A DNA stretch of 64,000 bases, taken from assembly GCA_947493165.1 (NCBI GenBank), contig CANLPY010000002.1:372001-436000 (forward strand), given 5' to 3'. Made by a program: the position numbers and the translations under genes. The number at the start of each line of letters is the position of its first letter. Within the stretch, counting starts at the first letter, position 1. The notes beneath the pieces were generated by a model. That model did not search any database. It saw only the letters and a list, made by a program, of their open reading frames with translations, and was not told where the DNA came from. The stretch is from an uncultured Erythrobacter sp. (lineage in GTDB: Bacteria > Pseudomonadota > Alphaproteobacteria > Sphingomonadales > Sphingomonadaceae). Below, one piece after another: positions 19,036 to 21,040 of the stretch.

Positions 19036-19794
19036 ATGACCGATCACATACTCGTCGAAACCGCGCACCGGTTGACCACAGTCACTTTCAACCGGCCGGA
19101 AAAGAAAAACGCCATTACGCAAGATATGTATCAAGCAATGGCGGATGCAGTGAATGCCTATGCCGCCGATGATGATGTTCGCGCGCTAATGTTTACCAGC
19201 AATGGCGACTATTTCACCTCAGGCAATGATCTACAGGATTTTGCGACGGGTCCGCGCGGCGATGGCTTACCTCCGGTCGCGCAATTTCTCCACGCGATTA
19301 AGGATTGCCCGAAAGCTTTAATCGCGGCGGTGAACGGGCCAGCCATCGGCATTGGTCTGACGCTGACATTGCATTGCGATCTGGTTTATTCGGCGGCCTC
19401 TGCAACCTTTGCTGCGCCGTTTGTAAAGCTGGGCCTTGTGCCAGAGGCGGCATCTTCCATGCTGCTGCCTGCTATTATCGGCATGGCTGCGGCGAATGAT
19501 GTGTTTATGACGGGGCGCACGCTAACCTCGGAGGAGGCGCTGCGCATGGGGCTGACATCACGGGTGTTTGATGATGGCGATTTTGCGGCTGAGACGCAGG
19601 CGCTGGCAGCGCTGGTTGCTAATGCTGCGCCGAATGCGATGCGCCATGCCAAGGCGCTGGTGCGAAATCAGAATGCGGCGATTACTGAATGCATGAATGC
19701 TGAGAGTGAAATCTTTGCAGCTCAGCTCAAGTCACCCGAATTTGGAGAGAGCGTTGCAGCGCTGATGGCGAAACGGCCAGCGGTCTATCCCTAG
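19036..19794 (+). CDS. Enoyl-CoA hydratase/isomerase family protein
   Basis: 252-residue crotonase-fold protein. FTSGNDLQDF near residue 58 and AAVNGPAIGIGLTLTLHCDLVY (about 97-118) form the CoA-binding and oxyanion-hole regions. FVKLGLVPEAASSMLLP matches the segment that carries the second catalytic acid in hydratases (ELGLxPExxxS). Family members hydrate or isomerise enoyl-CoA; exact substrate is unknown. AAGGAATTTT upstream may be the ribosome site. It follows the short-chain dehydrogenase at 18176 and ends convergently with the two small peptide genes. Confidence 0.87.
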   Translation: MTDHILVETAHRLTTVTFNRPEKKNAITQDMYQAMADAVNAYAADDDVRALMFTSNGDYFTSGNDLQDFATGPRGDGLPPVAQFLHAIKDCPKALIAAVNGPAIGIGLTLTLHCDLVYSAASATFAAPFVKLGLVPEAASSMLLPAIIGMAAANDVFMTGRTLTSEEALRMGLTSRVFDDGDFAAETQALAALVANAAPNAMRHAKALVRNQNAAITECMNAESEIFAAQLKSPEFGESVAALMAKRPAVYP

Positions 19795-19808
19795 TCCCCC
19801 CTGGCCCT

Positions 19809-19833
19809 GCCCGGCATCCAATTGAGACCGGGC
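19809..19833. terminator. Probable bidirectional hairpin between convergent genes
   Basis: GCCCGG (19809-19814) pairs with CCGGGC (19828-19833) across a 13-nt loop. It lies between the enoyl-CoA hydratase stop (19794) and the small-peptide gene stop (19851). No long T-run is seen on either strand, so it is a weak terminator candidate. Confidence 0.4.
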
Positions 19834-19850
19834 GGATAGCGTGTTCTGCG

Positions 19851-19964
19851 TTAGGCGAAAAGGCCTGGGCTTGCAGGAACGATAGCGGTTGCAAACAAAA
19901 CTGCTGACATGCTCAGCGACAGAACAGCTGCGAGGACGGCGGTGCGATTGGCGTTGGCGTACAT
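19851..19964 (-). CDS. 37-residue hydrophobic peptide, copy 1
   Basis: ATG 19964-19962 to TAA 19853-19851 encodes 37 residues: a polar start (MYANANRTAV), a hydrophobic middle and the end SAVLFATAIVPASPGLFA. AAAGGAA lies about 9 nt before the start. It is 24/37 identical, without gaps, to the neighbouring gene at 19995-20108. Across the 13 identical residues AVLFATAIVPASP the two genes differ at many third positions but never in amino acid, which is the pattern of translated, selected sequence. The peptide should insert in or cross the membrane. I do not recognise the family; a small membrane protein or type I toxin-like peptide are possibilities. Confidence 0.75.
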   Translation of the reverse strand: MYANANRTAVLAAVLSLSMSAVLFATAIVPASPGLFA

Positions 19965-19994
19965 GGGGGAATTCCTTTGTGAAGTTGGGCGCTG

Positions 19995-20108
19995 TTAAGC
20001 GAACAGAGCCGGGCTGGCTGGAACGATTGCGGTTGCGAAAAGAACTGCAGAGATAGCCAGTGAGAATACAGCGGCGATTGCAGTGTGAGTGGTTTCAGTA
20101 GCGAACAT
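19995..20108 (-). CDS. 37-residue hydrophobic peptide, copy 2
   Basis: ATG 20108-20106 to TAA 19997-19995 encodes 37 residues: MFATETTHTAIAAV, a hydrophobic span, then SAVLFATAIVPASPALFA. AAGGAG precedes the start by about 7 nt. It is a tandem paralogue of the gene 30 bp downstream. A longer open frame continues upstream past 20108 but lacks coding character and crosses a leader with a hairpin, so the short start is preferred. Likely membrane-inserted; the terminal ASPALFA could resemble a signal peptidase site or be a functional tail. Function unknown. Confidence 0.75.
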   Translation of the reverse strand: MFATETTHTAIAAVFSLAISAVLFATAIVPASPALFA

Positions 20109-20332
20109 TTGAAGTCTCCTTAGTGTTTGTTTTGTATCTGGTGGGACGATCCCACTGGATGAAAACAACATTGCAGGAGCCGTGCCAAACTCGAAAAACG
20201 GCAGAAAACTGCGGTTTTTGCAGATCCACATTAACCCAAGATAAACGCCATTTGCGCATGATTGGGAAATCGCACCAACTGTTAGGATTGGGCTTTCTGA
20301 TAAAGATTGCAGGCTGTGCCGCCCGCGCCCGC
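20109..20332 (-). promoter_or_regulatory. Leader and promoter region of the small-peptide pair
   Basis: This 224-bp gap separates the peptide genes from the membrane-protein stop at 20333. It contains a perfect hairpin GTGGGA-CGA-TCCCAC at 20141-20155, about 33 bp before the copy 2 start codon, and an imperfect GCAG...CTGC repeat near 20200. The hairpin would lie in the 5' leader of the transcript. No convincing -10/-35 pair could be fixed by eye, and no gene is seen. Confidence 0.4.
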
Positions 20333-21040
20333 TCAAGTGGCGGCGCGCATCTTTGGCTTGGTCTGGATCGTGAAGTAGATGATTAGACCAACGCCCACCA
20401 TGCTGGGTCCGGCCCATATCATCGGATTGAACACATGCTCAGGGATCATGCGGATCAGTCCGACCGAAAGAAACGCAGTGTAGGCTGAGATACCCATGCC
20501 GATCAGGGCGCGAAAATGCTCCCCCACATAATCAAGGCGCCCGACCTTTTCGCGCCACACGAACACTTGTTGCAGCGCCATGGCCACTAGGCCGACGATA
20601 GCGACCAGCACCATCAGCGGGTGTCCGACACGCAGGCCGAAATATCCGCACCACAGGCCAGAGGCAACCACCGCCAGCATCACAATCTGATACCGGGGCG
20701 CGCGCAATCGCTCACGCTCGCGCCCATGCTTCACCGTAGCCAGTCCATAATCGGCAAAACCGATCGTCAGAAAACCAAGGTAGAGCATCATCCAGCCGAA
20801 CAATCCGGCGAACAGCTCTCTATCCGTGATCGTCGGGATGCGCTGTTCTGACCCATATAGCGACAGCAGCGCCATCGCGATGGCAAGCGCGCCCGCGACC
20901 ATGAAGCCATAGCAGGCATAACGGCCCCATTTGCGATGGGCTTTGCCGCCTTTGCGCGCAGCAATGGGAACCCAAAAGGCGACCAGACCCAGCGTTCCGG
21001 CTATGACGTGCACCACAACAAAGGCTTCAAACAGATGCAT
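20333..21040 (-). CDS. Integral membrane protein, DUF2306-like
   Basis: 235 residues with about seven hydrophobic segments. The start at 21040 (MHLFEAFVVVHVIAGTLGLV) is chosen; a longer frame from 21142 is Arg/Cys-rich and lacks membrane character. HVIAGTLGLVAFWVPIAARKGGKAHRKWGR, cited here only as the region at residues 11-40, has the His near the membrane and the basic loop seen in DUF2306-type predicted membrane proteins. A second short His-containing region, GEHFRALIGMG, follows. No function is known. It is divergent from mmsA, with the shared 164-bp region 21041-21204. Confidence 0.6.
   Translation of the reverse strand: MHLFEAFVVVHVIAGTLGLVAFWVPIAARKGGKAHRKWGRYACYGFMVAGALAIAMALLSLYGSEQRIPTITDRELFAGLFGWMMLYLGFLTIGFADYGLATVKHGRERERLRAPRYQIVMLAVVASGLWCGYFGLRVGHPLMVLVAIVGLVAMALQQVFVWREKVGRLDYVGEHFRALIGMGISAYTAFLSVGLIRMIPEHVFNPMIWAGPSMVGVGLIIYFTIQTKPKMRAAT

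Follow-up and report, generated by a model that had tools for sequence, protein, structure and literature searches.

A Tandem Pair of 37-Codon Genes in Erythrobacter as a Probable Satellite of a Sigma-54/PspF-Type Micro-Protein Operon

Introduction

The locus studied here raises the question of what two adjacent and similar open reading frames (ORFs) of 37 codons could do for a bacterium. They lie on the minus strand of a stretch of 64,000 nucleotides (hereafter the window) of contig CANLPY010000002.1, from an uncultured Erythrobacter sp. of the family Sphingomonadaceae. An earlier note, written from the sequence alone, had presented them as tandem genes of hydrophobic peptides under purifying selection and had likened them to type I toxins. 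From the comparison of related genomes we propose, with good confidence, that the pair is a satellite, lacking a PspC gene, of an operon of micro-proteins controlled by PspF. The products would be single-pass proteins acting with a small PspC-domain protein (mini-PspC) in membrane stress, and the satellite would add to their dose.

The Two Peptide Genes and Their Selection

Both ORFs were found on the minus strand, with 37 codons each (Table 1), gene 2 being located downstream of gene 1 after a spacing of 30 nt. Each possessed its own Shine-Dalgarno sequence (AAGGAG and AAAGGA), and 24 of the 37 residues were common to both peptides in an ungapped alignment, as the earlier note had reported. 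Codon by codon, 11 positions were unchanged, 13 carried synonymous differences and 13 carried differences that alter the residue. In the block of identical residues AVLFATAIVPASP, 7 of the 13 codons were identical and 6 synonymous. The pattern described previously was thus present, but as a proof of translation and conservation it is of little worth on its own because the residues were picked as identical; the ratio of nonsynonymous to synonymous changes (dN/dS) is the better argument. The values computed for the pair (dN 0.257 and dS 2.05 by NG86, this dS being near saturation) agreed with the purifying selection claimed before. Among 130 pairs of family peptides of equal length, at least 60% identical and mutually non-independent, the median dN/dS was 0.186 and 99% of the values were below 0.5. 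Selection on the reading frame argues for the translation of both ORFs. Chance ORFs were ruled out by these ratios together with the existence of homologues in relatives. Upstream of peptide 1, its frame runs on through the promoter for 140 codons without a stop (window 19995-20417, minus strand), and automatic annotation may wrongly call a long ORF there.

Table 1. Features of the array in the window. The family profile giving the E values of the two peptide genes was itself built with both sequences.
Feature	Position	Strand	Sequence or product	Basis
Peptide gene 1	19995..20108	-	37 aa + stop TAA, MFATETTHTAIAAVFSLAISAVLFATAIVPASPALFA	ORF, Shine-Dalgarno, family profile E 4.7e-13
Peptide gene 2	19851..19964	-	37 aa + stop TAA, MYANANRTAVLAAVLSLSMSAVLFATAIVPASPGLFA	ORF, Shine-Dalgarno, family profile E 4.8e-11
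Sigma-54 (-24/-12) promoter	20172..20188	-	TTGGCACGGCTCCTGCA	Direct reading; same element before other first genes
Candidate activator (PspF) site	20262..20278	-	TTGGTGCGATTTCCCAA	Start 91 bp upstream of TGGCAC; same position at second array and pspF-pspA
Palindromic element	20194..20219	-	AAAAACCGCAGTTTTCTGCCGTTTTT / AAACSGCAGAATTCTGCCGTTTTT	Just upstream of -24; conserved columns in 42 non-redundant array leaders
Hairpin at 5' end of predicted transcript	20141..20155	-		Perfect stem; compensatory changes across 42 leaders

Distribution and Traits of the Family

The earlier note had made its claim depend on homologous ORFs in relatives, and these were recovered by single-sequence and by profile searches. 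Among 298 genomes of the taxonomic family, the single-sequence search gave 47 at E ≤ 0.001; at E ≤ 1, a threshold permissive enough to let in chance matches, the number was 88. A first DNA pattern designed for the peptide gave no match in the genome of origin; the single-sequence search revealed a second array, of three genes, in this same genome (G000:C1:42402-42822). With a family profile built from 80 members, 131 of the 396 genomes of the order matched at E ≤ 0.01, and 130 of them belonged to the Sphingomonadaceae, some with weak scores. Positive genomes amounted to 40 of the 41 examined in the genus of the window. The re-inspection of 30 genomes showed that several weak matches were diverged arrays behind the same promoter. 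When the profile search was extended to the class, 11 of 289 genomes matched, two of them from the same genus. The nine others were taken as chance, being weak (3.8e-5 to 0.0099) and located within open frames of 110-553 codons.

The loci fetched as best matches, 129 in number and thus a non-random sample, were reduced to 91 distinct arrays by removing those identical over their last 80 bases. These arrays held 167 peptides (162 distinct), at one to three genes per array, with a length of 35-52 residues (median 39), neighboring genes being separated by 23-58 nt (median 38). Both contigs of genome G120 start and end within array copies (L028, L032, L033 and L039), and the duplicated arrays seem to break this assembly. 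The A[IV][VIAL]P motif was present in 157 of the 162 distinct peptides, including the two of the window, within a conserved end AIVPASPxxxA of which the terminal residue was an alanine in 138. The last 12 residues contained a lysine or arginine in a single peptide out of 162, and tryptophan was seen in three. In arrays with PspC, 133 of 141 peptides had a basic residue ahead of the helix, as compared to 11 of 26 from arrays without PspC; in the window, peptide 2 had such a residue and peptide 1 did not. AlphaFold2 modeled residues 2-28 as a single long helix that breaks at the proline, with a mean pLDDT of 80 which falls toward the end.

The statement that the peptides belong to no named family stood: no Pfam, NCBIfam or PADLOC model covers them. 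The comparison of the 80 members to Pfam at E ≤ 0.01 returned no Psp model and one weak match to one member. Peptide 1 showed a weak resemblance to a YgaP-like transmembrane model (E 0.12, below the cut-off), and a solved-structure match inside NADH-quinone oxidoreductase subunit H (E 0.099) was taken as chance. The family is probably missing from the searched libraries because its genes are only about 40 codons long.

The Sigma-54 Promoter and the Candidate Activator Site

The sigma-54 consensus, TGGCAY-N6-TGC, was present before 46 of 50 first genes, at -68 to -82 relative to their start codons, and two of the four genes lacking it begin at a contig end. Further upstream of the array promoters a second element, TTGGTGAAAATTCCCAA, was observed. 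A matrix of this candidate activator site was trained on 42 leaders, including both arrays of the genome of origin. Its best match in 47 distinct leaders started exactly at -91 from TGGCAC in 41 cases and at -90 or -92 in the six others. The sigma-54 promoter accompanied by the site at -91 (±1) was present in 85 of the 91 distinct arrays, and in 42 of 47 held-out arrays which had not been used in building the matrix. Among 106 TGGCAY sites taken from these loci as controls, a single one was accompanied by the activator site, and this lone positive (L201) was the promoter of a diverged array.

Eleven strict sigma-54-like sites were found in the genome of origin, and the activator site was present only at the two arrays, with scores of 22.0 and 23.4, the remaining nine scoring -15.1 or lower near -91. 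The scan with the activator site also matched between the gene of an enhancer-binding protein and that of PspA. TGGCAC was at the right distance only at the two arrays and at this psp locus, among the 15 loci given by the scan, so that the two pattern scans yielded the arrangement three times (window array, second array, pspF-pspA). The order of the psp locus was pspF, then a small ORF, pspA, pspB and pspC. The enhancer-binding protein was identified as PspF by its NCBIfam equivalog (486 bits for a cut-off of 443.55); PspA, PspB and PspC also passed their equivalog cut-offs, and a sigma-54 factor is encoded in the genome. The psp promoter, TTTGGCACGCTGCTTGCT, was accompanied by a copy of the activator site, ATAGTGAAAATTCCCAA, starting exactly at -91 (score 14.5; p 0.005, the lowest value that 200 shuffles can give). 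Upstream of pspA in Escherichia coli K-12, a matching element, TTAGTGTAATTCGCTAA, which is presumably a PspF site, started at -81, closer by roughly one turn of the helix. E. coli PspF binds two upstream sites at pspA and one at pspG (PMC3709507). From these positions, the control of the arrays by PspF appears well supported.

Association with PspC and the Satellite Status of the Window Array

A PspC-domain gene of about 70 residues directly followed the last peptide gene in 74 of the 91 distinct arrays, and in 63 of these 74 the two genes overlapped by ATGA. The profile used for this count derived from ORFs of these very loci, selected by motif; the Pfam PspC domain was confirmed in all three proteins tested (E 3e-17 to 9e-15). 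The PspC of the second array matched positions 4-59 of the 121-position PspC equivalog, and we call it a mini-PspC because the match was partial and below the cut-off.

The association was also seen when the loci were entered from the PspC side with ten mini-PspC queries, although these were taken from the arrays and the loci are not a wholly independent sample. Among 80 loci in named genomes, 36, including all of the best 28, had between one and three micro-protein genes ahead of PspC, behind a sigma-54 promoter with the activator site at -91 (±1). Their promoters were new in 24 cases and identical to loci already in the array set in 12. They include Erythrobacter, Altererythrobacter, Qipengyuania, Tsuneonella, Pelagerythrobacter, Novosphingobium, Blastomonas and Sphingomonas ursincola. 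The remaining 44 loci had PspC genes devoid of the sigma-54/micro-protein arrangement.

The window array was not followed by PspC, and the PspC-type motif was absent from the whole window; the second array of this genome is the one followed by PspC. Of the 14 genomes in which a PspC-less array was found, 10 were seen to have an array with PspC as well. For the four others (G019, G111, G427 and G550) no other array was fetched. Array L028 is counted as PspC-less over the 19 bases that remain before the end of its contig. In genome G520 a corresponding satellite was found in the same neighborhood, with two flanking genes 87% identical, which indicates that the satellite has existed long enough to be passed on by descent. 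The genes neighboring the window array were called by eye only, presumably as SDR, ALDH and ECH. Many arrays with PspC (among L001-L079 and L194-L243; uncounted) adjoin a gene about 25-30% identical to the dehydrogenase-like gene located beyond the window array.

The Leader of the Arrays

The palindromic element was found, with up to two mismatches, only at the two arrays of the genome of origin. The hairpin described in the earlier note was confirmed as an exact stem, GTGGGA-TCG-TCCCAC. The transcript would begin near position 20161, as judged from the -12 element. Four near-duplicates were left out of the 46 leaders, and in the alignment of the other 42, 71.1% of the cells were paired at this hairpin, more than in slid controls, the hairpin having been named from the window sequence, a choice which favors it. 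Changes on both sides of the stem were counted in 20 cells as compared to 7.2 in shuffles, and none of 500 shuffles reached 20. The number of pairs showing such a change (five) was unremarkable, being reached in 106 of the 500 shuffles, and RNAalifold predicted no pairs on the MAFFT alignment of the 42 leaders. The mean folding energy of the 46 leaders was -12.3 kcal/mol, versus -7.3 kcal/mol in base-shuffled copies. At the psp promoter of this genome a hairpin was not evident by eye. The leader hairpin probably acts as a stabilizer of the 5' end of the mRNA.

Small ORFs of the psp Loci

In most readable psp loci of Sphingomonadaceae (L173-L192; L131:2280-2438 in the genome of origin) a small ORF of 48-75 aa with one helix was located between the psp sigma-54 promoter and pspA. 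The resemblance to the array peptides (for instance in L183 and L186) lies in the small size, the single helix and the position behind a psp sigma-54 promoter; unlike the arrays, this leader ORF is longer, in single copy, and followed by pspA. A pairwise profile comparison of the arrays with ten psp leader ORFs gave a probability of 68.5 and an E value of 4.6e-5, one ORF being entered twice among its eleven rows and the Erythrobacter-type leader (A4) being left out. The array profile also matched the leader ORF before pspA in G497 (E 0.0048). These matches are suggestive, not proof, of a distant homology between the two kinds of peptides. In the other families of the order (L146-L171) several loci showed a different small ORF at this place, often with an arginine-rich tail (L156, L159, L163 and L169). 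Following pspC in the genome of origin (L131:4462-5514), three tandem ORFs shared a hydrophobic start and a motif close to ERIVTDRGY; they are possibly duplicated PspB-like proteins.

Discussion

We propose the following sequence of events. Membrane damage would free the enhancer-binding protein PspF from PspA. PspF would then occupy the -91 site and activate the sigma-54 polymerase at 20172-20188, inducing a short mRNA with a hairpin at its 5' end. Each cistron would be translated from its own Shine-Dalgarno sequence into a single-pass inner-membrane protein with the N-terminus inside. Translational coupling would link the final micro-protein of the main operon to the PspC-domain protein of about 70 residues, and the micro-proteins and the mini-PspC, presumed partners, would probably serve together in protection or signaling at the membrane when the envelope is under stress. 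A higher dose would come from the satellite.

Several observations weigh against this model. The activator site stood out less at the promoters of psp operons than at those of the arrays: among 19 readable promoters of the same family, 11 scored above 5 within one base of -91, this position being the best match in nine of them, and eight did not. In the other families of the order the best, often weak, match was at -109 to -116 in 18 of 24 (43 of the 51 psp loci were readable, and at least one, L191, was scored with a site nearer pspA than another one seen there). Six of the 91 arrays were without a readable or scoring promoter, one of them, L201, having it further upstream. Genome G465 has an array with PspC, yet no match to PspA, and G424, from the genus of the window, has PspA but no array. 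Co-occurrence of arrays and PspA was dropped as a test since PspA was found in 383 of the 396 genomes of the order and such a test says little. Finally, the window array is itself without PspC and its first peptide without the basic residue, and it could have drifted in function.

The main rival explanation is that the peptides are stress-induced, membrane-active toxins or dormancy factors of the TisB or YohP kind, driven by PspF and lowering the membrane potential instead of protecting it. Type I toxins of the TisB/Hok/Ldr kind are short hydrophobic helices in tandem copies, and the small, very hydrophobic, multi-copy peptides of the arrays, behind a stress-type promoter, resemble them. A precedent exists in the 27-aa YohP of E. 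coli, which lowers the membrane potential and protects the cells (PMC12719787). The type I toxin reading of the earlier note is not supported: neither a sigma-70-like promoter on either strand of 19750-20420, as expected for an antisense RNA, nor an Rfam match in 19500-20500 was found, and we regard type I toxin-antitoxin as improbable. The peptides also lack a basic or Trp-rich tail, the overlap with the PspC gene is usual, and the near-universal presence in the genus differs from the patchy distribution of type I loci. We consider this rival, even in its PspF-driven form, unlikely. What stood from the earlier interpretation is that these small hydrophobic proteins are conserved, under selection and arranged in tandem; it had overlooked the sigma-54/PspF promoter as well as the PspC gene that usually adjoins the arrays.

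It might also be imagined that the small cistrons are leader ORFs, inert as peptides, whose translation determines, through coupling, how much of the downstream PspC is made. The frequent ATGA overlap is in line with this idea, but the purifying selection on the residues, the arrays of up to three genes and the PspC-less satellites, that of the window having an inherited counterpart in G520, make it highly improbable. Equally improbable is a role as precursors of secreted peptides, the helix being a signal sequence and the residues after AIVPASP being released: the hydrophobic segment with its conserved end and final alanine, and a weak match of one of the 80 members to a Phr signaling-peptide model (E 0.0054), would fit, but the released part would be only about ten residues of variable sequence, the terminal alanine of last genes is partly due to the GC-ATGA overlap, and sigma-54/Psp control and the PspC overlap do not fit.

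The PspF-controlled operon that we favor has relatives among known systems. PspG and PspD of enterobacteria are, like the array peptides, small proteins under PspF and sigma-54 (PMC9239133). The array peptides differ from them by the lack of a Pfam match to either, by their 35-52 aa and single helix, by their tandem arrangement usually overlapping a PspC-domain gene, and by being essentially confined, in the searched genomes, to the sphingomonad family. E. coli PspB is a small inner-membrane partner of PspC encoded in the same operon. The array peptides are likewise small, predicted membrane proteins, usually in an operon with PspC; unlike PspB (PF06667), to which they have no sequence match, they coexist in this genome with a separate PspB in the psp operon.

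The Psp system is already known. No description of these proteins was found in the open-access literature among the top-ranked titles and beginnings of abstracts, nor in the portions available of PMC11237479 and PMC9239133, which suggests that the operon of tandem micro-proteins and mini-PspC under PspF is apparently undescribed. We put forward, tentatively and with somewhat less than even confidence, that the arrays represent a new class of phage-shock effectors, in which near-identical single-helix micro-proteins in tandem, driven by PspF, co-assemble with a mini-PspC in the inner membrane, their copy number (one to three per array, plus satellites) tuning the dose. For PspC, the arrays supply candidate partners that can be put to the test, and with their differing gene numbers behind a common type of promoter they form a natural copy-number series of small, predicted membrane proteins. 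This operon type is present in nearly all examined genomes of one genus, yet lies outside the searched family libraries. If the model is true, the defined PspF regulon would extend past the enterobacterial pspA and pspG promoters: PspF would have a second operon under its control, and the Psp system would gain one more membrane component, fixed within a single bacterial family.
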